From: a virus
Length of the DNA: 59,076 nt
Reading direction: 5' to 3' (one strand)
IMG/VR virus record: IMGVR_UViG_3300046743_000040
Location: 1 to 59,076 of that record
The notes beneath the pieces were generated by a model, which worked only from the letters and a program-made list of their open reading frames with translations, did no database searches and was not told the origin of the DNA. Each line of letters begins with the position of its first letter. The stretch's first letter is position 1. A program made the position numbers and the translations under genes. This document shows positions 1,973 to 51,533 of the stretch, one piece after another.

Positions 1973-2120
1973 CATCACACGGTGAGCTGCTTCACACGTA
2001 GTACGTCTAGTGATCTAGGACTAGAAACATAAAAGTTAGCAGTATGTTGACCCAAATCAGCTAAGTCATTGATAATGCAGTAATGTTCCAAATGTTCCAA
2101 AAGTTTTTGGTACTGTTCCA

Positions 2121-2151
2121 CTGTAAGTGATTGTTTTTAAAGTAATGTTCC
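2121..2151 (+). repeat. Left arm of a 31-bp inverted repeat
   Basis: Positions 2121-2151 match the reverse complement of 2302-2332 at 29 of 31 bases. Each arm begins with CTGTAAGTGA and ends in AAAGTAATGTTCC. The arms enclose 150 bases. Confidence 0.85.
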
Positions 2152-2301
2152 TATTGTTCCTAATGTTCCATCATTTTTTTAACAATTTTATTTTACGATT
2201 TACCCCTCCTTCGTTGGGGGCGCAGCCTATTGTTCCACCCATCTCAACGATAGACCCCAAATCCCCAGATCGCTTACTTATACATGGAACATTGTCACTT
2301 T

Positions 2302-2332
2302 GGAACATTACTTTAAAATCAGTCACTTACAG
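2302..2332 (-). repeat. Right arm of a 31-bp inverted repeat
   Basis: Reverse complement of the left arm at 2121-2151 with two mismatches. It carries one of the GGAAC sites at its inner end, so the site array and the inverted repeat belong to the same structure. Confidence 0.85.
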
Positions 2333-2437
2333 CCCAACCCCTTGGAACATTACGGAACATTACACCCCTACCACTTATCACACACGAACCCCCACCCCTA
2401 CAACATAACACCTCCAGATAACACCTCCTGACATTCC

Positions 2438-2466
2438 TTGACTTTACCTACAAAGTATGGTATAGT
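2438..2466 (+). promoter_or_regulatory. Sigma70-type promoter
   Basis: TTGACT at 2438-2443 and TATAGT at 2461-2466 are separated by exactly 17 bases. Transcription would start near 2473, about 25 bases before the ATG at 2499. It is the best host-type promoter seen in the rightward arm and would drive the second early unit. Confidence 0.8.
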
Positions 2467-2498: not shown

Positions 2499-2750
2499 AT
2501 GACAAACACAGACACCGTGCTTGATGCGTATGGGGAAACCCATACAAGTTTCGCACCCTGCACAGTATGCGGCGAGGATATCGACCCACCCCAACGCGTA
2601 TTGCTCGGGTACAAAGTTTGCCTAGACTGTGGCGACAGTACCGCCAAGACAGAACGGTCTACGTGGACAATCGTACCCACACCCAAGGGTCACTATACAC
2701 GTATCACCCGCAAGAGTGATCTGCTCGCCCTCAATCAAAAGCCAAGATGA
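2499..2750 (+). CDS. Small zinc-ribbon protein, 83 aa, carrying a palindrome insert
   Basis: Function not known. The ATG at 2499 follows GGAGACTACA; a TTG twelve bases earlier overlaps that site and is rejected. Two CxxC pairs (CTVC about residue 20 and CLDC about residue 39) form a probable zinc ribbon. Just before it, residues about 11-16 (YGETHT) are encoded by a full copy of the 18-bp palindrome, read in a frame different from the one used in the VWA gene. It is the first gene after the sigma70 promoter. A nucleic-acid or protein-binding adaptor role is a guess. Confidence 0.75.
   Translation: MTNTDTVLDAYGETHTSFAPCTVCGEDIDPPQRVLLGYKVCLDCGDSTAKTERSTWTIVPTPKGHYTRITRKSDLLALNQKPR
2528..2545 (+). 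repeat. 18-bp palindromic element inside a coding sequence
   Basis: An exact copy of the GAAA-loop form lies within the zinc-ribbon gene. Eighteen bases keep the reading frame and add six residues (YGETHT). Confidence 0.9.
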
Positions 2751-2753
2751 ACC

Positions 2754-2771
2754 GTATGGGGAAACCCATAC
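2754..2771 (+). repeat. 18-bp palindromic element between genes
   Basis: GAAA-loop form, starting three bases after a stop codon and ending 17 bases before the ATG at 2789, immediately upstream of the AAAAGGAGAACTAAA ribosome binding block. Confidence 0.9.
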
Positions 2772-2788
2772 ACAAAAGGAGAACTAAA

Positions 2789-3709
2789 ATGAACGATCTT
2801 TCAACAGGCATGACGTTTGCCGAATTAGACACAGATGCCGTTGCATCTATATCATCAAGCGCGATGCTCGTAGACCTCACAGTCACACAGACACGCATGC
2901 GGAAGAATGACCCCGAGGCCGCTGCTCGGTTGGCGGCTATGTCGGGCGCAGACAGTGAGGCGTTCACGGCGATAAAGTCCTTGTTCGGTAAGAAGTGCGA
3001 GGAGCTAGAAGCGGTCAAGAAGCAAGTGACCAAAGTTCGCAACGTACACAAGAACCTGACGCTGCCGTGGAAAGACGGTGGTGGTCGGCTACTAACAACG
3101 GCTATGTCGTTCAGCTATCACAAAGCGGTGACTACCGAGATTGCCAAGGGTGAAGCGTTGGTTGCTGAATTGGTGGACGCATACGAGGACCGTAAAGAAG
3201 AAGCCAAGATGGCCCTTGGCCCTGACTACAATGAGAACGACTATCCGAGCATTGATAAGTTCGCGTCCAAGTTCTCGTTCAGTCTTGACGTGGAACCGCT
3301 ACCCACAAGTGGTGACTTTCGCATCGACATACAGAACACAGGTATTGCCGATATCGCAGAACAGTATCAGTCCAAGTTCAACGACAGATACGCTGCGGCT
3401 ATGCAGGACGTGTGGAACCGCGCCCACAAGGTGTGTCAAAACATGAGTGACAAACTGGACTACTTCGCAGACGAAGATAAAAAGATATTCCGCGATACAC
3501 TTGTGAGTAACGTCACAGATATTGTGGACATGATGCGAGGCTTCAACATTACTAACGACCCCACGATGACAGCGGCTGCTAATCATCTGGAAGAAGCAAT
3601 GCGGGTGGTGACACCCGATGCGCTGCGCGAGAACGCTGACCTTCGCGCAGAAACCAAGCGTTCAGTTGACGAGGTTATCAAAACCCTACCGTCACTGGAC
3701 TTGTTCTAA
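2789..3709 (+). CDS. Helical protein of the AAA+/VWA gene set, 306 aa (possibly DUF3150-like)
   Basis: The chosen ATG follows AAAAGGAGAACTAAA; an upstream ATG at 2747 would read through the palindrome. The protein is hydrophilic and mostly helical, with a central KNLTLPW segment (about residues 90-97) and no Cys, signal peptide or membrane segment. Its size, fold type and position just ahead of a MoxR-type ATPase and a VWA protein recall the DUF3150 family that sits in the same place in other phages; I make this link from context and general resemblance, not a match. It may be a substrate or adaptor of the ATPase. Confidence 0.7.
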   Translation: MNDLSTGMTFAELDTDAVASISSSAMLVDLTVTQTRMRKNDPEAAARLAAMSGADSEAFTAIKSLFGKKCEELEAVKKQVTKVRNVHKNLTLPWKDGGGRLLTTAMSFSYHKAVTTEIAKGEALVAELVDAYEDRKEEAKMALGPDYNENDYPSIDKFASKFSFSLDVEPLPTSGDFRIDIQNTGIADIAEQYQSKFNDRYAAAMQDVWNRAHKVCQNMSDKLDYFADEDKKIFRDTLVSNVTDIVDMMRGFNITNDPTMTAAANHLEEAMRVVTPDALRENADLRAETKRSVDEVIKTLPSLDLF

Positions 3710-3730: not shown

Positions 3731-4228
3731 ATGAAATGGAAGAATGTACCCGCACCGAAAAGTGGACGTGCTTGGACAGGTAAGGAAGAAGATATTCTTG
3801 CCGAGATGGTGGACGCTGAGTTCAGTGACGCCGAGATTGGTGCTGAACTGGGACGGTCTCCCAAATCTATACAGGTACGCAAGTGCCGTATCCGTGCAAG
3901 AGCAGGTAAATGTGTAGCCCACAACAAAGCTGTAGATGTAGCGATTAACAAGGCAATAGGTATGACCGAAGAAGAACTAAAGTTTATACGGAAGCATGAG
4001 CAACAGTGGACTGATTTTCGCAAGGGTAACATGGGCGAGGGTAAGACTAGCGGCCTTCTTCACGCGGAACAGTTCATGAGTGATGAGGATAGTGAGATCT
4101 CCCCGGAGAACAACAAAAACACTTCTCCCGGGTACACTACACTACGCGTACCACACACATACTTCTACGCGTGTGTGTACGTAGTCGCACTATCCTTGGC
4201 CTTCTATCTTGGAAGCATCTACCAATGA
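3731..4228 (+). CDS. HTH/Myb-like DNA-binding protein with C-terminal membrane anchor, 165 aa
   Basis: The ATG follows AAAGGAGAACTAAA. Residues about 14-55 (AWTGKEEDILAEM, then DAEIGAELGRSPKSIQVRKCRIR) resemble a SANT/Myb or GcrA-like helix-turn-helix: an acidic first helix, then a recognition helix ending in basic residues. The middle is charged and disordered. The last ~22 residues, from YFYACVYVV to YLGSIYQ, form one hydrophobic segment, so the protein may be tethered to the inner membrane. DNA-binding domains with a C-terminal anchor are unusual in phages. Its stop overlaps the start of a tiny membrane protein (ATGA). Confidence 0.7.
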   Translation: MKWKNVPAPKSGRAWTGKEEDILAEMVDAEFSDAEIGAELGRSPKSIQVRKCRIRARAGKCVAHNKAVDVAINKAIGMTEEELKFIRKHEQQWTDFRKGNMGEGKTSGLLHAEQFMSDEDSEISPENNKNTSPGYTTLRVPHTYFYACVYVVALSLAFYLGSIYQ

Positions 4229-5474: not shown

Positions 5475-5723
5475 ATGAGAGCGAGTGATTACAGAAAGAA
5501 GGTGCGACAGCAGCGTAGGGCTAAGTTTATGCGGAACCGCAAGTCTATGCTCAACGTCTACGCCCAAGACTTGATGGGGTGGGAACCAAATGACAGGGGC
5601 ATACGTTGCCCCGAGTGCAGACCCACCGCTTCACACATGGTCAACCCTCACTGTCACCTATGCGGTGGTGCAGGGGAGACTGATATCAACGTGGCTAGAG
5701 GCCACATACTAGGAGAGGAGTAA
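5475..5723 (+). CDS. Small DnaJ-type zinc-finger protein, 82 aa
   Basis: The N-terminus is very basic (KKVRQQRRAKFMRNRK, residues about 7-22). The second half has CPEC near residue 45 and CHLCGGAG near 60; the second is a CxxCxGxG-like DnaJ central-domain repeat. A role as an RNA- or protein-binding zinc adaptor is plausible. It lies between the AAA+ ATPase and the zincin-VWA gene in one run of closely spaced genes and may belong to the same functional set. No enzyme motif is seen. Confidence 0.7.
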   Translation: MRASDYRKKVRQQRRAKFMRNRKSMLNVYAQDLMGWEPNDRGIRCPECRPTASHMVNPHCHLCGGAGETDINVARGHILGEE

Positions 5724-6016: not shown

Positions 6017-7320
6017 TACTAACCGAGGAGCAGCGCATTGAAAAAGCTGTTGTCTCTATCATGGCGCACCCCAAGTGGTGTGCCTACGCAGGTATGCTGA
6101 TGATGGGTAAACGCATTGTCAGCGATGATAACGAGCGTTATCCCACCGCGTGTACCAATGGACGTGACGAGTGGTACGGACGTAAGTTCGTTGCATCACT
6201 CACCGATGCCGAGTTGCGGTTTCTCATACTACATGAGGTGTGTCACAAGATGTTTAGGCATCTCATTACATGGGCTGCTATTCACAAGATCAACGCTAAG
6301 AAAGCTAACTTGGCGTGTGACTTCGTTATCAACGTGCTGTTGGTTGATGCCGATGACGGTGAGGGTTTCATCACCATGACAGGTGCGCTGACCACAGGTT
6401 GCTTCAACGTCAAGTATCGTAACTGGGACAGTGGGCAGGTGTTCCACGATCTGCCTGATCCAATAAAGCGTGACCCCGAAGATGGTGACGGTGACGGTGG
6501 TATGGGGAAACCCATACAAGGCGATGGCGATGGCGATGCTGACGATGACGATGCAGGCGGAAGCATCAAGAACGATCAACCATATGACGGTACATACCCA
6601 GTAGATGATGACCCGTCGTTTGACGATCACGATTGGGATGGGGCCGAGGATATGACCCCTGACGAGCAGCGTGATCTTGCGCGTGAAGTTGACGAGGCAG
6701 TTCGGTCTGGCGCGTTGGCTGCGGGTAAGATGGGTAACGGTGCAGATCGTAACATCACTGAATTGTTGCAGCCGCAGATTGACTATACAGAATACATGGC
6801 AGAGTTTTTTACATCGCATGTGCGAGGTAAAGACTTCGGGACATTCAAGCGTCCTAACAAACGTTACCTGAGTGCTGGCGTATACATGCCAAGTCTCATG
6901 TCTAACGCTATCGGGCCTGTGTGTCTTGCTATGGATATGTCTGGTTCTATCGGACAGCGTGAACAGTCTGTCATGTTGACCGAGTGTGGTCACATACTTT
7001 CAACGCTCAAGCCAGAGTGTGTGCATGTACTGTACTGGGACACTACTGTCGTTCGTGCGGAGAAGTACGAGCGTGACGAGTTGGACATGATGATAAAATC
7101 TACCAAGCCCGCAGGAGGCGGTGGTACAGATGTTAGGTGTGTACCAGCGTATCTTAAAGAGCATCGTATCAAACCAGAAGCAACCGTTATTCTTACTGAC
7201 GGTCACTTGTGGGGCGGTTGCGGTGAGTGGGGTCATCCTACCTTGTGGGTAACGCTCGACCACGCAGGTTGGGAAGCCGATGTTGGCAAGACCGTACACG
7301 TAAGAGCGTGTGATATGTAA
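6004..7320 (+). CDS. Zincin-like/VWA fusion protein (COG3864, DUF2201-like), 438 aa
   Basis: Likely metal-dependent peptidase or chaperone-like partner of the AAA+ ATPase. The N-terminal domain has HEVCH at residues 77-81 (HExxH zincin motif). An Asp/Gly-rich acidic linker follows (about 160-210), into which a copy of the 18-bp palindrome inserts six residues (MGKPIQ). The C-terminal VWA domain has the MIDAS motif DMSGS at 311-315 and ILTDGH near 398. This architecture matches the predicted metallopeptidase-VWA family (COG3864) often paired with MoxR ATPases. Whether HEVCH is catalytic is unproven. Confidence 0.85.
   Translation: MFGLILTEEQRIEKAVVSIMAHPKWCAYAGMLMMGKRIVSDDNERYPTACTNGRDEWYGRKFVASLTDAELRFLILHEVCHKMFRHLITWAAIHKINAKKANLACDFVINVLLVDADDGEGFITMTGALTTGCFNVKYRNWDSGQVFHDLPDPIKRDPEDGDGDGGMGKPIQGDGDGDADDDDAGGSIKNDQPYDGTYPVDDDPSFDDHDWDGAEDMTPDEQRDLAREVDEAVRSGALAAGKMGNGADRNITELLQPQIDYTEYMAEFFTSHVRGKDFGTFKRPNKRYLSAGVYMPSLMSNAIGPVCLAMDMSGSIGQREQSVMLTECGHILSTLKPECVHVLYWDTTVVRAEKYERDELDMMIKSTKPAGGGGTDVRCVPAYLKEHRIKPEATVILTDGHLWGGCGEWGHPTLWVTLDHAGWEADVGKTVHVRACDM
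6500..6517 (+). repeat. 18-bp palindromic element inside the VWA gene
   Basis: An exact GAAA-loop copy splits a run of alternating Gly and Asp codons in frame (GDGDGG, MGKPIQ, GDGDGD). Neighbouring sequence on both sides is the same simple GAT/GGT repeat, which makes insertion into an existing linker the simplest reading. Confidence 0.9.
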
Positions 7321-7328
7321 TCAACAGT

Positions 7329-7346
7329 GTATGGGGAAACCCATAC
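7329..7346 (+). repeat. 18-bp palindromic element between genes
   Basis: GAAA-loop form eight bases after the VWA stop codon and 20 bases before the ATG at 7367. Confidence 0.9.
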
Positions 7347-7366
7347 ACAAACTAAGGAGAACTGAA

Positions 7367-7591
7367 ATGTACGACAAGACAGAGGAAGCGGAGTTCACGG
7401 CTGCGTGGGACAGGCATAGGCAACGGTTCAACCCGTTCATTGCTTGTCCCGAGTGCGAAGGCTCTGACTACGTAGGTAAAGTAGAGCATGAGAAGTACGA
7501 ACTAATGAGTAGCGGTATCTACGAACCTGTTGGTGTGTGGAAAGACTGTGGAAACTGCGGTGGTACAGGGGAGATAGAAAGTGACTTGTGA
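7367..7591 (+). CDS. DnaJ-type zinc-finger protein, 74 aa
   Basis: The ATG follows AAGGAGAACTGAA; an earlier in-frame ATG at 7310 lies in the VWA gene and would read through the palindrome. CPEC near residue 26 and CGNCGGTG near residue 61 form two halves of a DnaJ-like zinc finger, with Gly-rich second half. A related domain is known fused to the DNA polymerase in HMO-2011-type phages; here the finger is free-standing. It probably binds a protein or nucleic acid partner; nothing more specific is visible. Confidence 0.75.
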   Translation: MYDKTEEAEFTAAWDRHRQRFNPFIACPECEGSDYVGKVEHEKYELMSSGIYEPVGVWKDCGNCGGTGEIESDL

Positions 7592-12619: not shown

Positions 12620-14463
12620 ACCTTGTTACGTTAGACTTTGAAACCTACTACGCGCAGAACTTTTCTCTGGCGAAGATAACGACAGAGCAATACATACGTG
12701 ATCGTAGGTTTGAAGTGATTGGGTTGGGGCTGAAACGCGGCCCCAATCCGACCGAGTGGGCGCAGGGTGCCGATGATGTAACCGAACTACTAGCATCTGT
12801 TGATTGGGGCAACACGCATGTACTGGCTCACAACATGATGTTTGACGGAGCCATCCTGAGCTGGCGTTATAATATCAAACCTAAATTCTTACTCGACACG
12901 TTGTGCATGGCGAGAGCGTTGCATGGTACAGAGCAAAGCGTATCCTTGAAGAACGTGTCGGAGCGTTACGGTGTCGGGGAAAAAGGCACCGAAGTTATCA
13001 TGGCGAAGGACAAACGCCTAGCCGATTTTACCGAGAAAGAACTGACCGCCTACGCAGGGTACTGTAAGAAGGACGTGGACCTGACTTACGCTATTTTTCA
13101 GCAGATGAAAGCCAAGTTCCCTGAACAAGAGTTAGATATCATAGACGCAACGCTACGCATGTTTACGGAGCCTAGCTTAGAGTTGGATATGGGCATGCTT
13201 GAGATGCACCTAGAGGATGTGCGGGATCGCAAAGACAAGTTGATGGTTGATGCCAACATCACTGACAGAAAAGACTTAATGAGTAATGCCAAGTTCGCGG
13301 AGTTGCTGTCTGGGTTAGGTGTCACGCCACCTGTCAAGATCAGTCCCACGACAGAGAAAGAAACATTTGCGTTTGCCAAGTCTGATAAAGAGTTTCAAGA
13401 ATTACAGGAACATGAAGACGAGCGTGTGCAAACGTTGATAGCAGCTAGGCTCGGTACTAAAAGTACCTTAGAAGAGACACGCACACAGCGGTTTATAGAC
13501 ATATCTAAACGTGGTACTCTTCCGGTCCCCATTAGATATTATGCGGCACACACTGGGCGATGGGGCGGTGATGATAAGATCAACCTGCAAAACCTGCCGA
13601 GCCGTGGGGCTAACGGCAAGAAGTTAAAGAAAAGCATAATACCCCCACAGGGTCATACTATAGTTGAGTGCGATGCGTCTCAGATTGAGGCGCGGGTGTT
13701 AGCTTGGTTAGCCGAGGCAGACGAATTAACTCAGGCGTTTTCTGATGGCGAAGATGTTTATGTGAAAATGGCAGCAGCTATATACAAAGTAGCCGAGGCA
13801 GACGTTACTGGCGCACAGCGGTTTGTGGGTAAAACTACAATCCTTGGCGCAGGTTACGGCATGGGGGCTAAGAAGTTTAAAACTCAGCTTGCAGGTATGG
13901 GCGTCGAGGTTGATCTAACGGAAGCTAGGCGTGTCATAAATATATACCGTGATACATATTGGAAGATACCTACGCTGTGGGATGAAGCCCAGTATATGTT
14001 GAAGCAGCTTGTAGACGGTCATGCGGTTCGCGTGGGACGTGAAAATGTGTTGCGTATAGACATACCACAGAGCGCAGTAATCCTGCCATCGGGGTTACGC
14101 ATGTTTTACGAAGACTTGCAGCTAGACCCCGCGCCCGAAGGAGTAGAACCCGAAGATGTTTGGCCCGAATACTCATACAAAACGCGCCGTGGACGTAAAA
14201 ACATATACGGTGGTAAGGTGGTTGAGAACGTATGTCAGGCATTGGCACGTTGTATCATTGGCGAACAAATGCTACTAATAAACCAGAAGTATAAGTCTGT
14301 TATGACTGTGCATGACAGTATAGCTATATGTTGCCCCGATGAGGATGTGGTACAAGCAAGGGCACACGTAGAGCGGTGCATGCGTCATGTACCCAGTTGG
14401 GCAGCAGGACTACCGCTTGAGTGTGAAAGCGGTGTTGGCAAATCGTATGGGGATACCGAATAA
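12616..14463 (+). CDS. polA: Family A DNA polymerase with 3'-5' exonuclease, 615 aa
   Basis: Replicates the phage genome. Exonuclease motif I is DFE at residues 7-9, followed by HNMMFDG and the YxxxD-type YCKKDVD. Polymerase motif A is CDASQIEAR (catalytic D353), motif B contains RFVGKTTILGAGYG, and motif C is VHDS (D567). There is no 5'-3' exonuclease domain, normal for phage enzymes of this size. The start is GTG overlapping the previous stop (GTGA). It is the centre of a run of coupled replication genes. Confidence 0.95.
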   Translation: MNLVTLDFETYYAQNFSLAKITTEQYIRDRRFEVIGLGLKRGPNPTEWAQGADDVTELLASVDWGNTHVLAHNMMFDGAILSWRYNIKPKFLLDTLCMARALHGTEQSVSLKNVSERYGVGEKGTEVIMAKDKRLADFTEKELTAYAGYCKKDVDLTYAIFQQMKAKFPEQELDIIDATLRMFTEPSLELDMGMLEMHLEDVRDRKDKLMVDANITDRKDLMSNAKFAELLSGLGVTPPVKISPTTEKETFAFAKSDKEFQELQEHEDERVQTLIAARLGTKSTLEETRTQRFIDISKRGTLPVPIRYYAAHTGRWGGDDKINLQNLPSRGANGKKLKKSIIPPQGHTIVECDASQIEARVLAWLAEADELTQAFSDGEDVYVKMAAAIYKVAEADVTGAQRFVGKTTILGAGYGMGAKKFKTQLAGMGVEVDLTEARRVINIYRDTYWKIPTLWDEAQYMLKQLVDGHAVRVGRENVLRIDIPQSAVILPSGLRMFYEDLQLDPAPEGVEPEDVWPEYSYKTRRGRKNIYGGKVVENVCQALARCIIGEQMLLINQKYKSVMTVHDSIAICCPDEDVVQARAHVERCMRHVPSWAAGLPLECESGVGKSYGDTE

Positions 14464-15200
14464 TGACTAGGGGAAGGCCAGATTTTATACCTGCGACTGT
14501 GTTTAGACAATATCTATCAACCACACAGCTAAACAAATACTTTAAAGTAGATGGTATCCTAGCAGCTAGTTATGTGAGCAAATGCTTGTTACGTACCGAT
14601 AGACCTATACCGTCTATCAAACCTGATAAATTATCAGCCCCTAGATATCGTCCGTTAGATGTAGTCGCTAGAGCGAGGGGCGAGGGTTTAGCTATAACGC
14701 GTAATAGTACAGACGAGTTGGCGCTTAACGTAGAGCAAAGCAAGTTAAAATTAGGCAAACTAAAGCGGGAAATAAGTGAGTTAGAACTTAAACGCGATAG
14801 GTTAAAGCATATAGCTACTTTCGATGAACTGAGTAACAAACTAACCATGCGAGATATGCTGATAGAGGACGAGTTAGTGTCCGAGAGTAAGCCTTATGAT
14901 AATTCTTGTGGTGTCTACTTCCTTATCGCCAACGATAAAGTTGTGTATGTAGGCCAATCTGTGAATGTGTATGGAAGGGTGCATACTCACAGGACTGAAG
15001 GCCATAAAAAGTTTGATGCGTATACATATATCCCTTGCAAGCGCGATCAGCTAGATGTTTTAGAAAGTTTATATATTCACGCATTAGCCCCTACTCTTCA
15101 AGGTAGGGCAGCGTGGGGCAATTTAGCGGCCCCCTTTAGTTTTGAACAGCTAGTAAGTTTGGGTTCCCGCGAGAAATACACAAAAGGAATTTCTACATGA
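14463..15200 (+). CDS. GIY-YIG nuclease domain protein, 245 aa
   Basis: The ATG overlaps the polymerase stop (TAATG). Residues about 85-125 are a charged coiled coil. The C-terminal part has the GIY-YIG nuclease fold: CGVYFLI at about 149-155, VVYVGQSVNVYGR, a His-rich helix and a late Glu (DVLESLY). It has no recognisable homing-type DNA-binding repeats and is tightly coupled to its neighbours, so it is more likely a replication/recombination nuclease than a parasitic homing endonuclease. Confidence 0.85.
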   Translation: MTRGRPDFIPATVFRQYLSTTQLNKYFKVDGILAASYVSKCLLRTDRPIPSIKPDKLSAPRYRPLDVVARARGEGLAITRNSTDELALNVEQSKLKLGKLKREISELELKRDRLKHIATFDELSNKLTMRDMLIEDELVSESKPYDNSCGVYFLIANDKVVYVGQSVNVYGRVHTHRTEGHKKFDAYTYIPCKRDQLDVLESLYIHALAPTLQGRAAWGNLAAPFSFEQLVSLGSREKYTKGIST

Positions 15201-19840: not shown

Positions 19841-22651
19841 GTGGAACGACTAGAATTTCTAAAAAGTGTTTTAAGTAGTGAAGGGCATTACTGTTTATTT
19901 GCAACCAACGGTGAACGTAGAACGCAGAACTTCTATGACACTATTGATGAACTGCATGCAGCGGTAGATGCCTTTGATGCTAAAGACCACGATGTTTATT
20001 TTGCGTTAAGCACATTCGTAAACAATACTAATCGTAGGGCCGATAACGCACTACATCTACAATCCTTTTTCGTGGACTTGGATTGTGGCCCTAGCAAAGA
20101 ATACCCGTCTCAGCAGGATGCACTATCGGCGTTACAGGCGTTTTGCACTAAGACTAGCATGCCCGAACCTACTAAGGTCAACTCGGGACGCGGAATACAC
20201 GCTTACTGGGTTTTGCCTGCACCAGTACCTGTGGATGATTGGGTTCCTGTGGCAGAACGGTTTAAAGAGTTTTGTGAGGAGAATGGTCTCAAGGCCGATC
20301 CTGCAGTTACGGCTGACGCAGCGCGTATCCTACGCATGCCTGACACACGTAACTTCAAGGACACACCGCCATCCCCAGTGGCTTTGATAAGTGCGGAACC
20401 AAGTATCGAGCTGGTTGACTTCGTAAGTTTACTGGGAGGCGTTACCCCTGTAAATACAGCCTCTGTTGGCGGCAATGTTGTGTCGGGGTTTATAGCGGTC
20501 AATGCTGAGAATAGCTTTGGTCGTATTGTAAAGAAGATACAAATAGGTAAGGGATGCGCTCAACTCGCGCATATACTGACAGATCAGGCCAATGTGACCG
20601 AACCGTTATGGAGAGCGGGACTGTCTATTGCTAAATTCTGCGAAGACGGAGACAGGGCTGCACAGGTAATGTCTAGGGGCCACCCTGATTATAACTCTGG
20701 TGAAACCCATCAGAAAATGTCTTTGGTTAAGGGGCCGTACACTTGTCGTACATTTAACGGTCTTAGACCTGATGTGTGTATGGAGTGTGCTTTATGGGGT
20801 AAGATAAAATCCCCCATAGTTTTAGGTAAACAATTTAAAGAAGCGGACGAGGCTGACAACGAAGTTGTTGCACCTAGCGCAAAGCGTCCCGCCAGTGCGC
20901 CTAAAATCTACAATATACCGACATACCCGAAGCCCTACTTTCGTGGCGCTAAAGGCGGTGTGTATAAACGCACCAGTAACAGTGACGGTGAGATAGAAGA
21001 AGAGTGCATCTACCACAACGATATCTATGTCATGCGCCGTATATGGGATACAGAGATAGGCCAAGCACTTGTGTTTAGGCTTCATATGCCCCGAGACGGT
21101 GTGCGTGAATGGACGATGCCAATGTTTAGCATCACATCGCGGGATGAATTTAGAAAAGCTATGTCTACGCAGGGTGTGGCTGCGTTTGGCGCAAAGTTAG
21201 ACAAGATACAGGTGTATATAATGGCATGGATTGAGGAACTACAATTTACTCAAGCAGAGGATGAAGCCCATAAACAGTTTGGGTGGGTTGATGATAGCAT
21301 GACCGCGTTCATCTTAGGGGATCGTGTTATCTACGGTAATGATGAAGACTACAACCCACCGTCTACACAGACTGCAGGTATGATAGACTACTTTACCCCC
21401 AAGGGTACTGAGCAAGGCTACCTTGATGCAATAGACTTCTACAATCGGGAGGGGTTTGAGTTGCACCAATTCACAATTGCTGCGTCCTATGCTTCGATAC
21501 TTATGCCCCTTACAGGGATCGGCTCTGCTGGGCTACATATGTACGGAGATACAGGTGTTGGTAAAACCACTATGCTGATGGCGGGGTTAGCGGCATGGGG
21601 CAACCCCGAAGAACTTTTGCTTGAAGAGCAAGACACATATAATTCTAAGATGCACCGTGGGGAAATATACCACAACCTACCACTTATGATGGACGAACTT
21701 ACTAATACCAAAGGGGGTAAGCTGTCTGATCTAGCGTACCAATTAACAGGTGGTAAGCAGCGTAATCGTATGTCCCAAGGCGGTAACACCGAGCGACACA
21801 GAGGCAAACCGTGGAGCCTACTGGCTGTTAGTACAGGCAACACTTCCTTTATAGAAATGATTAGTAGGGTAAAAGGTTTCCCCAAAGCGGAGGCTCAACG
21901 CATATTAGAGTTTAGGACTGAAGCGAAGTTCTCTGGTTCTGCTAGTAAATCCGAGACTGACAAGCTGTGGCCCGCTTTTAAAGGCAACTACGGTCACTCA
22001 GGGGTACGGTTTGTGCAGTGGGTCATAAACAACCGTGTAGAATGTGAGCGTACTATAAAGCATGTGCAGTCGCGTGTAGATGAAAAGGCCGAACTTGGTC
22101 CTGAGAACCGATTCTGGTCTGCCGCTGTTACGGCTATTATATCTGCACTTATGATAGGTAGAAAGGCAGGGGTACTACCCTTTGAGGTAAAACCTGTATT
22201 TGCGTTTGCCGTAAACAGGTTGCGAGAACGTAGGGCTTATGTTGCCGATATGGGTTCTTCTGTAACTGAGACGTTGAACAATTATATATCTGAACATTGG
22301 AGCAACATACTCTGGATCAAAAGTACAGATGATGCCCGTGGTAGTGTAGATGGCAATCCACTAGATATGTTGGCACTGCCCGAAGTTACACCCCGAGGCA
22401 AGTTCGTCGCTAGGTACGAGACTGATATTAAGAAAGTCTATCTATTACCGAAGCCGCTGAAGACTTGGTGTATAGATCAACAGATAAACTATGAACAGTT
22501 AATTAGAGATTTAACTGAGAAGATGAAAGCCACCAAAACACGTATACGCCTAAGTAAAGGCACACATATGAACCTACCCTCTGCTAGAGTTATATGTGTA
22601 GATTTTTCTATTGATGGAGTTCCTGATGGATCAGAAGGTGATGAAGATTGA
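19841..22651 (+). CDS. Primase-helicase, 936 aa (PrimPol-like domain plus AAA ATPase)
   Basis: Primes and unwinds DNA at the fork. The N-terminal domain has the primase-polymerase signature FVDLDCG (D79, D81) and VNSGRGIHAYW near residues 110-120. A Cys set near 300-315 (CRTF.. VCMECALWG) suggests a zinc knuckle. The C-terminal ATPase has Walker A GDTGVGKTT at 569-577 and Walker B NLPLMMDEL, as in DUF927-type helicases. The start is GTG after GGAGGACTAGCA, behind a structured leader. The largest rightward gene. Confidence 0.85.
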   Translation: MERLEFLKSVLSSEGHYCLFATNGERRTQNFYDTIDELHAAVDAFDAKDHDVYFALSTFVNNTNRRADNALHLQSFFVDLDCGPSKEYPSQQDALSALQAFCTKTSMPEPTKVNSGRGIHAYWVLPAPVPVDDWVPVAERFKEFCEENGLKADPAVTADAARILRMPDTRNFKDTPPSPVALISAEPSIELVDFVSLLGGVTPVNTASVGGNVVSGFIAVNAENSFGRIVKKIQIGKGCAQLAHILTDQANVTEPLWRAGLSIAKFCEDGDRAAQVMSRGHPDYNSGETHQKMSLVKGPYTCRTFNGLRPDVCMECALWGKIKSPIVLGKQFKEADEADNEVVAPSAKRPASAPKIYNIPTYPKPYFRGAKGGVYKRTSNSDGEIEEECIYHNDIYVMRRIWDTEIGQALVFRLHMPRDGVREWTMPMFSITSRDEFRKAMSTQGVAAFGAKLDKIQVYIMAWIEELQFTQAEDEAHKQFGWVDDSMTAFILGDRVIYGNDEDYNPPSTQTAGMIDYFTPKGTEQGYLDAIDFYNREGFELHQFTIAASYASILMPLTGIGSAGLHMYGDTGVGKTTMLMAGLAAWGNPEELLLEEQDTYNSKMHRGEIYHNLPLMMDELTNTKGGKLSDLAYQLTGGKQRNRMSQGGNTERHRGKPWSLLAVSTGNTSFIEMISRVKGFPKAEAQRILEFRTEAKFSGSASKSETDKLWPAFKGNYGHSGVRFVQWVINNRVECERTIKHVQSRVDEKAELGPENRFWSAAVTAIISALMIGRKAGVLPFEVKPVFAFAVNRLRERRAYVADMGSSVTETLNNYISEHWSNILWIKSTDDARGSVDGNPLDMLALPEVTPRGKFVARYETDIKKVYLLPKPLKTWCIDQQINYEQLIRDLTEKMKATKTRIRLSKGTHMNLPSARVICVDFSIDGVPDGSEGDED

Positions 22652-22853
22652 AGACCTTAATCCTGACGGGATTAGAGTAATTGTAAACTGGGATAAACTT
22701 ACGGTTAGCGGGTCTGTGTTTATACCCTGTGTGGACACTGAGAAGACTAAAGATCAGGTGTCCACCGTTGCATCGCTGCGACAATGGGAGGTTAAACACG
22801 AAGTTCGTGTAGAAAACAAAATATTGGGGTTACGTATATGGCGTACCGCATGA
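22626..22853 (+). CDS. Hypothetical protein, 75 aa
   Basis: Not recognised. The ATG follows GGAG with six bases between, inside the end of the primase-helicase gene, overlapping it by 26 bases. The protein is a short beta-rich sequence (IRVIVNWDKLTVSGSVFIPCVDT, then RQWEVKHEVRVENKILGLRIWRT) with a central QVSTVASL helix. It is the last rightward gene before the convergent terminator. Confidence 0.65.
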   Translation: MDQKVMKIEDLNPDGIRVIVNWDKLTVSGSVFIPCVDTEKTKDQVSTVASLRQWEVKHEVRVENKILGLRIWRTA

Positions 22854-22857
22854 TATA

Positions 22858-22915
22858 GGGCAGTTAGGCAATATCCATTTCCACTGCGTGTTGCCTGTTC
22901 TCCCTTGAACTGCCC
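22858..22915 (+). promoter_or_regulatory. Nested stem at the end of the rightward arm
   Basis: GGGCAGTT at 22858-22865 pairs with AACTGCCC at 22908-22915, and inside it AGGCAA (22866-22871) pairs with TTGCCT (22891-22896). This stem competes with the terminator hairpin for a few bases, which could be part of a 3'-end protecting structure. Confidence 0.45.
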
Positions 22916-22939
22916 CTGCTTAATTGCAGGGGCTTTTTT
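22912..22939 (+). terminator. Strong terminator at the meeting point of the two arms
   Basis: GCCCCTGC (22912-22919) and GCAGGGGC (22926-22933) form a perfect 8-bp stem with loop TTAATT, followed by six T. It ends rightward transcription. Its T run covers the stop codon of the converging 2718-aa gene. Confidence 0.93.
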
Positions 22940-25900
22940 AACTTACAGGAGAGGACAACCCACCGTCATATTCACCAGCACTTCTACGCATACTAGGTGA
23001 GTACTGCATCCCACCTATCATTTCTCTTGTATTACGATCAAAGTTTTTAGAAGAATTTTTAAACGACTCCGTAGTTATATACAGGTCAATCGCATCTGGC
23101 GGTAAGCTGTTGTTATGCTCTATAGATTCTCTGTAGGCTTGGCGAAGACCCTCAACGTCCCCTTCTCTTCGGGCCATGTTAGCCTTACGCAAAATCCTAC
23201 CCTTGCGATCTGTCATAGCAGAATATTTTTGCCGCTCGTTACGGTTCATATTAAGCTGCTCTATATGCGCGTGACTAGAAAACCCTAGAGCTTGTCCAGC
23301 AAGTGTAAACGGACTTGTCGCTGTTATCTCGTCACCACGTAGGGTTAAGTTCCCTTCGGTAGCATAACGCCCAGTTTTCATTATGTTACGCAGTGCTGCA
23401 GGTGAAGCGGCTTCAACACCACGCCATACGTTACCTTCTGAGCCAAGCTGCCAGCCCCTACTTAACTGGCTTGTTATACCGATTGCAGGGCCACCTATTT
23501 GCTCTATTAGTGTAAATAGAGGGTTTTGATCTTTGTCGATTAGTGGTGGGCGGTACAACATATTGTTGAGTGCGATACGATCACCAATCTCAAGACCTGT
23601 CATGTCAACAAGCCCACCATACACAGGGTCTGCCATCCACTTCTTATTCATAACATCCCAATTATCTTCGTCATCGTCTTTAAGGAGCATATCATACATG
23701 ATACCAAGTTCACCGAACAACGGCATGCCTGATGCACCTGCGATAAGTCCCGTAGTAATAAGAAAGTTTGCCGCCTGTGCGCGCGCTATCTTTCGGGTGT
23801 CTAACGCATCTTGATATGCTTCGTCAGAGGGGTAAGCATCTCTCGACAACACAACCGTAGCATCGTTAAGCATACGCATCATCATGTAGTATTTACTTAT
23901 AGCGAACCGTTTAAACAGGAATAGTACGTTACCTATCGGCCCCTGTGCGTATACGGGGCGTCCTGCCGATGCAGTACCTCCGAGGGTAAACTCTACAAAC
24001 TCAACTGCAGCTTCTGCAGCTTTTTGCTTGTCAGCATCGGTTACTTCTTTTTTGCCACCATTACTCAGCTTATCCATTTCTAACTTGTATGCGGCGACCA
24101 GTGATACTTCACGTCCGTAGCGTTCCGAGTGATGGAACATAGCCCCACCCCATTTTTGGGAAGTATCAACAATTTTTTTACCTATGCGAGACGCTCTGTC
24201 TGTACCAGTGTCTCCGGTAAATACATCTAATTCTAAAGTTTCCTGTGTTAGGGACTGCCCCATCTGCGCTTGGTTAGTCGCGTACTTAACCAGTACCTCT
24301 AAATCACGTAATCCTTCTGGAATAGATGACGGGTCACTAAAGTCTAAGTTACCCAACGATATACCAAACGAGCCTAAATCGTATTGCTCTCTTACTTTAT
24401 TGCCTTTCTCATCGTCCACAATAAGAGTTTTGGAACTGGGGGCCGCGCTTACGGCTTTAACAGCATCTCCAAATGCCTTGGTAGTGTTACTTACACCATA
24501 CTTACCCGATAGTAACGGCATCACCGACATACCTACATCAAAAAAGGTCAAAGCTGCAGACGAGAAGTTCAGCCCCATAGTCCAGTTAAACCCAAGATTA
24601 GTGATGATCTGAGACGCACGGTTTACGTTAGGGCGTTGTGCGAACTCTGCTATCTTCATAAGCCTGTCAGCTATTTCTGCTGTATCGGGATTTTTGGTCA
24701 ACTCAACTATCTGGTTGACTACTTTTTGTATCTTGGCACTTGATCTAAGTTGCACGACTTGTCGGTTAAGGTCACGTCCCTTAGTTTCCATCATGTCTAT
24801 TAGATCAAAATTCTCTAGTGTGTACCCTGTAGGGGTAGTGTCACCCAAGAAACCACGGACACCTTTACGTGTTCTAAACCCCTGCATAAACGAGCGTTCT
24901 GGTACAGCATCCAAAGCTAGGTCAAGGATATCACTAATGACCTTATTACCTTTGCCACCTTCCATCTTTTGCACACCCGCAGTCTGCAGGACATTTAGTA
25001 CGTTGAACACAAATCCAGAGGAAGGCGCTTTACCATAGTTACTGTTTGCTGTAATTTTTTCCATTTCTGGGGCAAACAGGGCATCGTCTGCCATCATAGG
25101 ATTGGGAGTATATGTACCTGTCTTTTCGTCCAATATACTTGCAAGTCCAGAGTTCTTAATGTCATCTCTAGCCAGCATGGTCTTGTTATAATCCTTGACC
25201 TTTTGCACCGCTTCCATCGCCGCTATCTTAGTGGGGAAATATTCCACAAAGCGATCTACCTGTGGCTTGGCATCAGGGTCTTGATCTTGCGGGTCGATGG
25301 CTGTGTAGGAAACACGGTAACTACCCTTACGCATAAGTGGGAAGTATGGTGTGATTAGCCCACTGTCCTTGAGTAACAGTTCGGACAACCTATCAAACGC
25401 GGTGCGACGTACTTCCGCATCATCACTGATGCTGTTTATACGATCTCTCAGAGCAGGCTCAATCTCATCATATGTTTCTTTAAAGTAATTACGCATGGTG
25501 CGGTACACACGCTGCCCGTCTTTACCAATACTATCGTAATCTTTTTTGAGAGCGTCATACACTTTTAGACGTTCTTTACCCAATGGTGCTATGACGTTAA
25601 GTTTATGGTCAGGGTTTTCTATTTTAAATTCTGCCATGTACTTAGCGCGTAACTCTGGTTTGGAAAAATTGCGCCTTGTTGTCTTTAGGGTTTTAGGGTC
25701 TTTAATAGTAAGCCCATAGGCGGTATACATTTCCCGTTTTATAGACGGGTCTATCCTGTTTAACGTAGACATAGGCACTAGCTGCTGCAGGGTCTTGTAT
25801 TTTTCTACCCCTTCAGCCCTACGGAAATCTTTAATTTGGTTTACAATATAGTCCAGTTTAACGGTCTTATCCCGTAATTCAGAACTTTGCTCGTTAATTA

Positions 25901-28900
25901 ACTTGTTTAGATCATTACCCACATCACTCTGATGGTTACGTTTTAGTGTGTCTCCGAGCAAGTTCACAGGCATGATACCGTATAAGAAACTCTTACCCCC
26001 TGTATACGGTTCTGAGTTCTTAGCGTAATCCTGCATAGCCCGTAGTTGTTCAGGCGTAGTGGGCTTGACAGCATTAGTAGCAGAGTTAGTTACATCTACA
26101 CTCCCTTGAGGGTTACTTGCCGCAAGATACATAGCAGGTGCGGCACGGGTACTTAACTGTGGAGCTAGTATATCGTTAAGTAATAAGTCGGTGCGGTTAA
26201 ATACCGATTCTGGTGGTCTACGCATGATCCTGTTAAAGAAACGCCGTATTGCAGTTCTAAAGTTTGTGTACGCATTAGTCATGTTAGTGTTAGCTAACTT
26301 TAAGTCTGTCATCGGTATACCCGCTAACATAACTTGGAAGTCAGGGTTGCTAAACGCCTCTGCAACAAACTCGTCTAGGCTCTTCATAGCATACGAAGGC
26401 GGTAGCTGTTTCTTAACCGCTTCGTAGATTGTATTAAGTTGTCTTACTTCTGGTAAACCCATATTTGAAAGGTTGGCCGCTGTAGCCGCGTGTAGCATCT
26501 CATGCAGTGTTGCATGGGAGTTTATGCCTATATCACGGTCTAAGAATATGGTGTTGGTGGCAGGGTCAAATACACCTGCAGCAACTTGCCCCTGCGGATT
26601 TCTTAGCCCACCAGATACCAGTTTTACTTGTGTATTGCCCACATACGGAACCAACCTCTCCGCTATTTTACTCACGTTTTTAGAGCGGCCTGTTATAGCT
26701 ATACTACGCAACGCGCCCACTAGATCGCCGTTCTCTAACATATTACGGGTACTAGGTCGCAGGGGTTCAGCCAACGCGCTAATCTCACTACCTAGAAGTT
26801 CAAGCTGCTCATTAATTGCAGGGGGAGTTACAAGGTCGCCTATAACATCACTATCGCCCTGCGCGGCTATGGATACCACACCCGCATCGTCATCAAGTAT
26901 AGTTTCTACACCTGCACGTTCTCCCTGCTGTGCGCCTTCTAGTGGTTTGCCTTTTTCATCAAGTTTACGAGGCTTAAACTGTGCTTTAGTTACAGGGACA
27001 TCTTGTTCTGTACCCGCAGGTTCAACTTCTAAAGCCTCTTTAAGAGACGCCACTTCTGCTTCTTGTCGTTCCGCAAGCTCTATAGCTACGGCCTCTCTAT
27101 CCTTAGCAAAAAACTTAGACTTCTTAGTCTTCTTCAAACGCCCCCTCATACCTTCTGGTAATGCAGCGCGTCTTTCTAACTCAGCCTCTATCTGTGCTTC
27201 AAGAATGTCATCTAATTCACGCTCAGTCATATCCGCAATGGTTTTGTCTTGTGCTACGGCTAACTCGATTTCACTTACAGCTTCGTCTACAGACTGCGTT
27301 GATCCTTTCTTAATCTCGTTTATCTTTCGTAGCAAATCGGCTGCTAGCGTATCGTCTGTGTATTCTTTCTTCGGTCTATCCCTTAAAGCCTTTCGCATAG
27401 CTAACTTGGCAGCTTCCGCTTCGTCCTGCCTAGCTATAGCTTCTAATTCCGCTATCAATGGATTTGGCGCGCCGAGACCCGCTATTAGATCAGCAGAGGC
27501 TTTATTAGCCGCGTCAGCCACTCTTGCCGCCGCACTCGCTTCTCGCATAGCTTGTCCATAGGATGCAGCCTGCAGTTTTGCGGCCCCATCCTTCATGGTC
27601 TTATGATCGTCTTTTACAACAGCGCGGGTCTTACTCACATACTCCACACGTCTTGCAGTTAACGCGGCTTTAGTGTCTGAGCCTAAGTTATTCTTTACCC
27701 AGTACATAGCTTTGACTGCATTGGTATACGTTAGAGGGCCGTAGAACGCTTCTTCATCAGACTTACTCTCAGCATCCAAGTTAATGTTAAACGCAGGGGC
27801 ACTAATATCTGTCTCTACCCCTTCCGCGTCTTTAGCGGTGGTCTTATCCTTTGATGCAGTTTGAGTAGCCCCAGTTTTATTACCATCACCATGAGCGCCC
27901 TGCATTTCATGAAGCGCATCCACAGGTCTACGGAACCTAAGAAAATAATCTCTAGCCGCCTTAACTCTTGCGCGTTCTACTTTATCTTTAATGTCTTTGA
28001 TGTTCTGGTCAGTCATACGAATAAGTTTAATTATATTTAGTTTATCTTCGTATGTAGTTATATCAGGTTCAAATGCTTCGGACGCAGTAGTAGACTGTCG
28101 ATTTTCTAAGGCTAGCGCAGCTTTACCGACTAGGCCAAATGTAGCCTTACGATCATTGAACAACCTACTAATGGTATTAGCGGTTGCCACTTCCAGAGCG
28201 TCTACTAATTCAGCATCGCGTAATGCGCCACTCAACGCGGCTAGTCTTTGTTCTTTAGATAAACCGCTACCCGTAATAAGGTCTAACTCAGCTTGACTTA
28301 GTTTTATTGCCGCACGGTTAGCGGGTAACGTATCAAAAGCTACAAACGGTTTGCTTGCAGGGTTTGTATTAGTGGGATCACCGATTGGTGCGCCAAGCGT
28401 CCTGTCATAACTCTGTACAAGGGGCGACCCTGTAGCGTCCAGTTGTGAGGGACTATCGGCAACTTCTAAATCAGTATCATCTCTAACGCGAGTGGGTGTG
28501 ATAGGTTCCATCTCGGGTGCAGTAATTGGATTTTCGGGTAGACCTGCAGCGGCCCTAGCTTCCGTATCGCCGTAAGAACCCTGTAATCTTGCGGGTATGT
28601 TACCAACCCCATCTTTTAACGTATATAGTGTGCGTAGTGCGTCACCTATAGTCTGCGACCCATACGGTCCCTTGTCTGTTGGTAGTGATGAAAGATGTTG
28701 CACCAATTCTGGGGGCCATTGTATTTTCCCTGTATAACTAGGTTTCCCTTGCAGTTCATAGGGTTTGTCCCCCGCAAATAAAACTGCAGTCTTATCAGCA
28801 AACGGTACATCCTCAACACGTAATGCGTCACTACCTACGTCCTCTCGGTACGTAGCGTTTAAATCTAACGTATTTAGGTCCAATCCTTCTAAGTAATCTA

Positions 28901-50024: not shown

Positions 50025-50495
50025 TTAAGGTCGTATTACAGTGTTAAACGCTTGTGCATACATTACTGTAATGCGGACAGAACCTGCGTTAGTAGCAGCA
50101 GAAGATGTTACAGTCAAACGAATGTCTGATGCACCAGTGTTACCCCATTCTAAGGTTCCACCACCGCCAGCACCCAGTGCTTTGACGCCCACCGTAGTTC
50201 CTGACGCAACCGTATTGATAATAGTGTTTGCATTACCGCCAACTTCACCAACGCTAATGTTGGTAGTAGCATTAGCCGCAGCTACAAGATCAATGATACA
50301 GTTAACGATCTTAGAGTTTGCTGGTATTACGATATCCGTTACAACCGCTGCAAGAGCGCCACCTGCAAGACTCTGTACTGTGTCTTGACACATTACAACG
50401 TAACCTACGTTAGCAATGTCAGTGCCTACAGTTGTGCCTGTAGTATTCTTAATATTACCTGCCCGGATTGGACCTGAAAAAGTTGTGTTAGCCAT
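50025..50495 (-). CDS. Structural (probable head decoration) protein, 156 aa
   Basis: ATG 50495 follows AGGAGATTATC; an earlier in-frame start at 50516 would include that site. The sequence is Ala/Thr/Val/Gly-rich: TTFSGPIRAGNIKNTTG and a long beta part ending SVRITVMYAQAFNTV. It sits directly downstream of the major capsid gene across a terminator. Decoration or fibre-base function is inferred from composition and position. Confidence 0.65.
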   Translation of the reverse strand: MANTTFSGPIRAGNIKNTTGTTVGTDIANVGYVVMCQDTVQSLAGGALAAVVTDIVIPANSKIVNCIIDLVAAANATTNISVGEVGGNANTIINTVASGTTVGVKALGAGGGGTLEWGNTGASDIRLTVTSSAATNAGSVRITVMYAQAFNTVIRP

Positions 50496-50520
50496 GATAA
50501 TCTCCTGTCGTGGCAAATGT

Positions 50521-50539
50521 CAGTTACACACTGTAACTG
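50521..50539. repeat. Perfect 8-bp inverted repeat
   Basis: CAGTTACA (50521-50528) and TGTAACTG (50532-50539) with a three-base centre. It lies between the capsid terminator and the next ribosome binding site, where it may act as an operator or an mRNA 5'-end hairpin. Confidence 0.55.
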
Positions 50540-50572
50540 TCAGGGATGAGTTAGTAATACAGCACCTTTGAA

Positions 50573-50627: not shown

Positions 50628-51533
50628 TTAGGCTCCGGGAGAACCGTAGATACCCAACGGATCAGAGACACCAAACGAATAACGCTCACGCGCTTTGTAG
50701 CGCACGTTACCTGTATCGAAGTCACCATCCATAGATGTTGTCATCGCGGTACGCTCAAAATGCTTCATGCCATTCGGAATATCAGTAGTGATAAAGAACG
50801 CATCTGCATCAGTCAGATAATGGTTAACCGTATAACCGCCCGGAATAGAACCGTTTGAGTTAAGTGCGTTAATGTCATTATCGGCTGTACCCACACGATT
50901 TACAGTTTCCAGCAAGCGTGTTGCCACAAACATAAGACCTGTAGGGATAATGAGCTTACGTGGGCGCGCAGCGATAAGAAGACCACGTTCATCAACGTAG
51001 GCTGCAATATCAATTACTGCTTGCTCAAGCGAGGTTTCATTCAGGTCAGCAGCTACCGCAGGACGGTTGCCGTTTGTAGCACCCGATACTGTGGGGTGTG
51101 CAGTGTTGAACAGCGTGACGCCATCACCTGAGTTAAAGGTGGCGAAGCCTGTGTTCAGCAAATCCGCTGCCTTAACCTGCTTGGTATAAGCCATAGCGCG
51201 AGCTAGTGCTTTGGTATAGCGGGTGGACAGTGAATCATACAGGTTATCTTCCATCGCTTCTTCAGTGATAGAGAAACCCATAGCCACAGTTTCATGGTTG
51301 TAACGAGCAGTAAATGATTCCTGCGCGTTATCATACGAGATAGCAGCACCTTCGTTTTTGACGGGTGCAGCGCCAAAACCTGAAAGTTTTACTTCCTCTT
51401 CAAAACTACGCTCCGAAGTCTCGGTTTCGTAGATGGCTTCATGTTCGTTTTCGTACTTGTTGTACTCTAAACCAAACAGGGCGTTAAGGCCCGGAAGAAG
51501 CTCTTTTAGCGCCTGTGCGCGAGAAATAGCCAT
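50628..51533 (-). CDS. Major capsid protein, 301 aa (Mu gpT/HK97-like)
   Basis: Forms the head shell. The sequence follows a known major head protein pattern: FGLEYNKYENEHEAIYETETSERSFEEEV near 17-45 (E-loop region), YNHETVAMGFSITEEAMEDN, VKAADLLNTGFATFNSGDGVTLFNTAHPTVSG, and a late YTVNHYLTDADAFFITTDIPNG. This is of the Mu-like gpT group within the HK97 fold. Its neighbours are the scaffold upstream and a strong terminator downstream. Length is normal for the group. Confidence 0.88.
   Translation of the reverse strand: MAISRAQALKELLPGLNALFGLEYNKYENEHEAIYETETSERSFEEEVKLSGFGAAPVKNEGAAISYDNAQESFTARYNHETVAMGFSITEEAMEDNLYDSLSTRYTKALARAMAYTKQVKAADLLNTGFATFNSGDGVTLFNTAHPTVSGATNGNRPAVAADLNETSLEQAVIDIAAYVDERGLLIAARPRKLIIPTGLMFVATRLLETVNRVGTADNDINALNSNGSIPGGYTVNHYLTDADAFFITTDIPNGMKHFERTAMTTSMDGDFDTGNVRYKARERYSFGVSDPLGIYGSPGA

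Follow-up and report, generated by a model that had tools for sequence, protein, structure and literature searches.

The array of TGTTCC words at 2084–2359 of the phage genome analysed here is, with a probability of about 87%, the phage's iteron-type replication origin, read by the C-terminal winged helix of its own primase-helicase, with both the binding and the origin activity being inferred. Directly observed are the array itself, its conservation, its concerted change in relatives and its covariation with residue 901 of the primase-helicase. The window, i.e. the whole stretch of 59,076 bases under analysis, is a complete viral contig, in which early genes run rightward (approx. 0.3–22.8 kb) and structural genes (terminase, portal, head) leftward (58.9–22.9 kb). 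In G003, a circularly permuted near relative that is almost equally long, the ends of the window are joined approximately 100 bases apart, and the genome is therefore circular or permuted.

A directional iteron array surrounds a T-tract

Eleven TGTTCC sites are found within 276 bp around a T-tract, seven in forward and then four in reverse orientation, with all forward copies to the left of all reverse copies (table 1). An earlier note on this DNA had described seven GTTCC words on the left, four GGAAC words on the right and an AT-rich T-tract core between them, and both the array and the core are confirmed, with the clustering lying beyond anything seen in simulations. In 200 second-order Markov simulations of the genome, no 280 bp contained more than four copies, as compared to the 11 observed, and a model of the local composition gave a mean of 0.67 and a maximum of six copies in 2000 runs. 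A scan of all 6-mers in the window found none as strongly clustered as TGTTCC at 1900–2400 (11 copies, 37-fold); a second cluster of the motif is absent, i.e. the array is the only one in the genome. Sites in the left block, for which the fuller consensus is AATGTTCC, follow each other at a 9-bp spacing in pairs and a triplet, and their positions are retained in relatives with other motifs. The T-tract core is inferred to be a candidate melting region.

Table 1. Positions of the iteron array, the adjoining promoter-like site and the proposed initiator in the window.
Feature	Position	Strand	Remarks
Left iteron block	2084..2169	+	TGTTCC at 2084, 2093, 2114, 2146, 2155, 2164
T-tract core	2170..2205		81% A+T; kept in relatives
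Seventh forward iteron	2231..2236	+	TGTTCC
Right iteron block	2286..2359	-	TGTTCC at 2286, 2302, 2344, 2354
31-bp inverted repeat, left arm	2121..2151	+	29/31 between arms
31-bp inverted repeat, right arm	2302..2332	-	29/31 between arms
Promoter-like site TTGACT-17-TATAGT	2438..2466	+	Ahead of early genes; consensus match only
Primase-helicase, proposed initiator	19841..22651	+	936 aa
Predicted C-terminal winged helix, proposed iteron reader	22409..22603	+	Approx. residues 857-921
Residue 901 codon	22541..22543	+	R in window; covaries with iteron bases 4-5
Residue 903 codon	22547..22549	+	R in window; appears to covary with base 2; one clear genome

The array had also been described as lying within an inverted repeat. 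This repeat is present, but it is not the conserved element: in relatives with other motifs it decays to 24 nt at 79% or 37 nt at 70%, whereas the iteron sites retain both position and orientation, and as a functional unit the repeat was rejected for its lack of conservation. Similarly, the claim that no comparable structure occurs elsewhere is correct for the symmetric array, but ten 18-bp palindromes and three CCAGTTCTCGGAG-like repeats are also present. The GC skew, proposed earlier as a check, does change sign around the array, yet this is not independent evidence because gene direction changes there as well. An Rfam search gave no match in the array region.

The iteron word changes in concert in close relatives

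Related stretches number at least 566 in one virus collection, and near relatives were located via the neighbouring gene at 2747–3709. The array turned out to be a family-wide element. Four near relatives carry TGTTCC at the same positions as the window. In L005, with a neighbouring protein 99% identical to that of the window, 11 of 11 sites at these same positions read TGTTAC, i.e. base 5 is changed at every site and the other site bases are unchanged, with flanks that differ by 7%. In L006, where the neighbouring protein is 98% identical, nine of the 11 sites read TGTATC and the other two AGTATC and TGTAAC, with differences of 17% in the array spacers and 6.5% in the flanks. In both relatives, the spacers are less altered than the sites. 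Since copies in both orientations and with unlike spacers are hard to homogenise by mutual copying, a reader protein with changed specificity seems the natural explanation, which remains an inference.

Distant relatives, in which the neighbouring protein is only about 40–45% identical, show the same order of forward sites, T-rich core and reverse sites, followed by the early promoter. In most of them the motif is AATGTTC with C, G or T as the next base; in others it is TGTTAC, TGTATC, TATTCG or AAAGTTC. Among isolates, no clear iteron cluster was found in the parts of the records examined for Pseudomonas phage Rollin and Rhizobium phage RHph_TM27A, and a megablast search with the first 12 kb of the window against isolate phages gave no match. 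When DNA was scanned for the pattern of tandem TGTATC words, most of the contigs recovered were unrelated.

The iteron word covaries with a single residue of the primase-helicase

The primase-helicases of the window and of G003 are 97% identical, and eight of their 28 differences fall in residues 893–918, a segment that occurs in close relatives as one of the types ATKTRIRL, AKKVQMRL, AKKVSIRL and AKKMHIRL. Covariation was assessed in 29 genomes in which a single contig holds both the array and the primase-helicase gene; the KRVQMRL primases of G034, G035, G036 and G042 lie outside this set, as their contigs end before the array. Base 5 of the iteron is not C in G003, G074, G092, G094 and G113, where residue 901 is Q, V, S, Q and Q, respectively, and in the remaining 24 of the 29 genomes residue 901 is K or R. 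The residue sets of the two base-5 classes are disjoint at position 901 and at no other of the 1019 alignment columns. When five-genome sets matched for relatedness were drawn, any disjoint column at all appeared in 3 of 600 sets, i.e. in the real set and in two of the 599 others. For base 4, A is found in G003 and G094, which are only about 50% identical overall and were the only genomes with Q901 in the set of 27 genomes available before G113 was added; G113 itself combines Q901 with TGTTAC and some TGTTTC. On a tree calculated without the C-terminal domain, and before the addition of G113, the fifth base had changed at least three times. Genomes with a base other than C and both elements on the same contig are five only, from about four lineages, and on its own the tree-based pair test, with so few independent pairs, cannot reach significance.

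For G092 and G094, predictions were written down before their arrays had been seen. A TGTTAC-like word was predicted for G092 from its S901, and TGTTAC was found, in nine copies by eye and eight by automatic count. TGTATC was predicted for G094 from its Q901, and the array consists mostly of TGTAAC with some TGTATC, such that base 4 and the absence of C at base 5 were as predicted, but the exact word only partly so. Both written predictions thus held in substance; for two further ones the contigs end before the array, which left no basis for a verdict. A fourth type of primase-helicase with H901 (AKKMHIRL) is encoded on L044 (sample 3300011252), a contig without the array, and predicts yet another iteron word.

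Residue 903 is R in all genomes except G081, where it is Y, and G076, where it is Q and the array is mixed. In G081, base 2 has changed from G to A (TATTCG) alongside R903Y, which suggests, from one clear genome only, that residue 903 may read base 2. An exception to the residue 901 pattern is G115, which has R901 and yet mostly TGTCG, with a minority of TGTTCC. Besides G076, the arrays of G023 and G044 are also mixed, and motif calls in mixed arrays rest partly on judgement. An attempt to join the TGTTAC contig L005 by overlap to L038, a contig with a class-3 primase (S901), was rejected, as the contig ends are 98% identical but not identical; this link rests on the shared sample only.

The primase-helicase had been named before as one candidate for binding the array, and the covariation across 29 genomes now points to its C-terminal domain. 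As far as sequence comparison can tell, the evidence from residue 901 and from the written predictions that this domain sets iteron specificity is strong but indirect.

Other potential readers of the array

Could the array be a set of operators for the promoter at 2438, bound by a repressor, as the earlier note had considered as an alternative, or by an early regulator of the phage? A promoter-like site is indeed located 80 bp to the right of the array, a helix–turn–helix (HTH) protein (D5-like, phrog_323; ORF 3731–4228) is encoded 1.4 kb downstream, and operators could also change in concert with a repressor. However, the HTH domain of this protein hardly differs between TGTTCC, TGTTAC and TGTATC genomes, which led us to reject it as the reader without excluding other small regulators, and the only column that tracks the motif is in the primase-helicase. 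Moreover, Pfam and PHROG scans of the main ORFs, with some small ORFs left unscanned, revealed no repressor or lysogeny genes, and no integrase or repressor family was among the proteins scanned. With a nearly unchanged HTH domain and without such proteins among those scanned, the repressor reading lacks support, and we regard it as very improbable.

That the array is read by some phage protein not singled out here, e.g. one from a small, rapidly evolving early ORF, is barely credible, even though ORFs 5475–5723 and 7310–7591 each have seven positions that are common to TGTTCC genomes and different in G003. Neither of the two has a Pfam match or has been shown to track the motif elsewhere, whereas the primase-helicase follows the motif in many lineages and has passed written predictions. 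In most other early ORFs, there are few or no differences consistent with the motif. The comparison was limited to ORFs present on the contigs, and these two small ORFs, which remain undecided, are not excluded. ORF 284–946, which adjoins the array, was rejected as a reader, since it occurs in two allele types neither of which follows the motif.

The C-terminal domain and a proposed mechanism of initiation

The primase-helicase contains a DUF927 helicase domain (PF06048; residues 369–650, E = 2.7e-26). Relatives with this domain include self-loading initiators that use iteron sites as origins; among them, SCCmec Cch is related to SaPIbov1 Rep, and in the Rep proteins of SaPIs the C-terminal domain recognizes the origin iterons (PMC7581432). 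An AlphaFold2 model of residues 740–936 (mean pLDDT 76.8) has the order strand-strand-helix-helix-strand-strand, as in a winged helix–turn–helix, with residues 901 and 903 in the first strand of the wing. The best PDB match of the C-terminal domain in Foldseek was SCCmec Cch (5dgk; probability 0.89, E = 0.083), with SaPI5 PriRep1 on double-stranded DNA (7pds) and TcpK on oriT (5vfx) as other top matches; all E-values were above 0.05 and none was 0.001 or less, and a sequence-profile search of the PDB with the same domain found nothing. TcpK inserts its beta-wing into the major groove to bind a tandem repeat of nine nucleotides (PMC6137059), which is a precedent for base reading by a wing. Thus, the origin put forward in the earlier note gains support from the covariation in 29 genomes as well as from the DUF927 initiator family, with origin activity and binding being inferred.

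In the mechanism that we propose, the predicted winged helix would bind the iterons, seven pointing one way on the left and four the other way on the right, and helicase rings would presumably be loaded in opposite orientations on either side of the T-tract, facing either away from or towards each other, which is undecided. The T-tract would then melt, and the fused primase domain would start synthesis. On the wing strand, residue 901 (K/R) would set the C and residue 903 (R) apparently the G of TGTTC, and iterons that change along with the C-terminal domain would give rise to different origin types in close relatives. The initiator, bound so close to the promoter at 2438, might in addition control early genes. 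All of these steps, from direct binding through helicase loading and melting to origin activity, are inferred, as is the autoregulation.

The primase-helicase might also bind the array mainly for transcriptional control or for tethering the replisome, with replication starting elsewhere. The position of the array directly upstream of the early promoter would fit such a role, and so would the distance of 17.5 kb to the initiator gene at the far end of the early genes. On the other hand, the genome has no cluster of the motif besides the array, its A+T-rich core is flanked by forward and reverse sites, and sites of this kind serve DUF927 relatives as origins (PMC7581432), all of which makes a start elsewhere unlikely.

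Further features of the genome

Ten copies of an 18-bp palindrome, mostly GTATGGGGAAACCCATAC, are located at 1726, 1833, 1955, 2528, 2754, 4332, 6500, 7329, 8826 and 10017, nearly all of them between early genes. Distant relatives have palindromes of their own, i.e. TTAGGC..GCCTAA in G010, TTAGTGAGCTCACTAA in G023, GTAGTGA.TCACTAC in G029 and TTAGGGAATTCCCTAA in G044. Going by these sequences, the palindromes appear as a second, genome-specific family of sites with an unknown reader. To the left of the array, CCAGTT(C/T)TCGGAG occurs three times (1640, 1755 and 1861). At least two CCAGTT words are found within 450 bases upstream of the neighbouring gene in 26 of 28 relatives, and this core word, unlike the iterons, is constant across the family.

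The two allele types of ORF 284–946 in close relatives are approximately 70% identical to each other and are distributed independently of iteron type. A GIY-YIG endonuclease-like ORF (14463–15200) lies between the genes for DNA polymerase and a PD-(D/E)XK nuclease, is absent at this place in G003 and is probably a mobile homing endonuclease; the idea that it is an origin-directed nuclease sharing the iteron-reading domain was dismissed, as it has no similarity to the primase C-terminus. In the structural region, an Rfam match to the Mu-gpT-DE RNA (50493–50545, minus strand; 70.8 bits at a gathering score of 49) is situated just upstream of a major-head-like gene (50628–51533). The largest ORF of the genome (2,718 aa; 22938–31094, minus strand) and the 1,055 aa ORF that follows it are unidentified. 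In Rhizobium phage RHph_TM27A (L137), the primase-helicase homolog at 22249–25332 is annotated as 'putative integrase protein', which is probably a misannotation.

Discussion

The closest parallels are the origins of SaPI Rep and SCCmec Cch, which likewise combine a DUF927 helicase with short iterons, and it is the structures of Cch (5dgk) and SaPI5 PriRep1 (7pds) that Foldseek places nearest to the C-terminal domain, i.e. to the domain that serves as origin reader in SaPI Rep (PMC7581432). There are several differences, however. Primase and helicase are one protein in the phage studied here, which is a tailed phage rather than a chromosomal island, and natural concerted iteron switches occur in its family. 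In SaPIs the origin is directly downstream of the initiator gene (PMC7581432), whereas the array of the window is 17.5 kb upstream of it (2.1–2.4 versus 19.8–22.7 kb). Because its array is not directly downstream of the initiator, we do not count this phage among the SaPI-type replicons, although we still claim that the mechanism is similar.

The alpha protein of phage P4 is a fused primase-helicase with a C-terminal origin-binding winged helix, and in P4 it binds two loci, ori and crr, with short directional iterons. The fusion of primase and helicase, the C-terminal winged helix (predicted in our case) and several short directional iterons are common to both systems. In contrast to P4, the window has a single array without a second, crr-like cluster, its helicase domain is DUF927 and its iteron word is a different one.

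A similar domain order is found in PrimQH and All3500 primases that are fused to DUF927 and carry a winged helix at the C-terminus, and for the winged helix of PrimQH a possible role in origin recognition was suggested by the authors (PMC5862659). What was a suggestion there is accompanied here by covariation evidence and named residues. Covariation of initiator and iterons is known from the PLE satellites of Vibrio, where the origin-directed nuclease Odn of phage ICP1 has been described alongside the PLE RepA_N and ori (PMC8263062). RepA_N belongs to a different initiator family, however, with no predicted helicase or primase activity (PMC8263062), and in PLEs whole modules are exchanged, whereas bases at fixed positions and a few residues change in the family of the window. 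Iterons with conserved positions and diverse sequences among close relatives are also found in geminiviruses (PMC12548392), but these are single-stranded DNA viruses of plants, with a rolling-circle Rep that is an unrelated protein.

Iteron origins with helicase initiators are thus already known from SaPIs and P4. Within the literature searched, it is new to find such a predicted origin in a large, mostly uncultured family of tailed phages at a distance of 17.5 kb from the initiator gene, and the same applies to a concerted specificity switch traced to wing residues.

Could origin specificity in this family be under diversifying selection? In this reading, viruses that are more than 90% identical would belong to different origin groups, i.e. 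TGTTCC, TGTTAC, TGTATC and a fourth initiator type with an unknown motif, driven apart by parasites or rivals and using a simple residue-to-base code on the wing strand. This is a tentative proposal, with the odds rather against it. Initiator-borrowing satellites, superinfecting phages and origin-directed nucleases are plausible but untested candidates for the driving force.

Mobile elements commonly encode fused primase-helicases that carry a winged helix at the C-terminus. The role of the C-terminal domain at the origin, so far only suggested for some families (PMC5862659), becomes testable by exchanging one residue and one base. For a family that comprises at least 566 related stretches, a replication origin and its reader can now be predicted, and the naturally matched iterons and initiators of this family offer ready material for studying how the wing of a winged helix reads DNA. 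The same matched set also poses the question of why nearly identical phages need different origin addresses.
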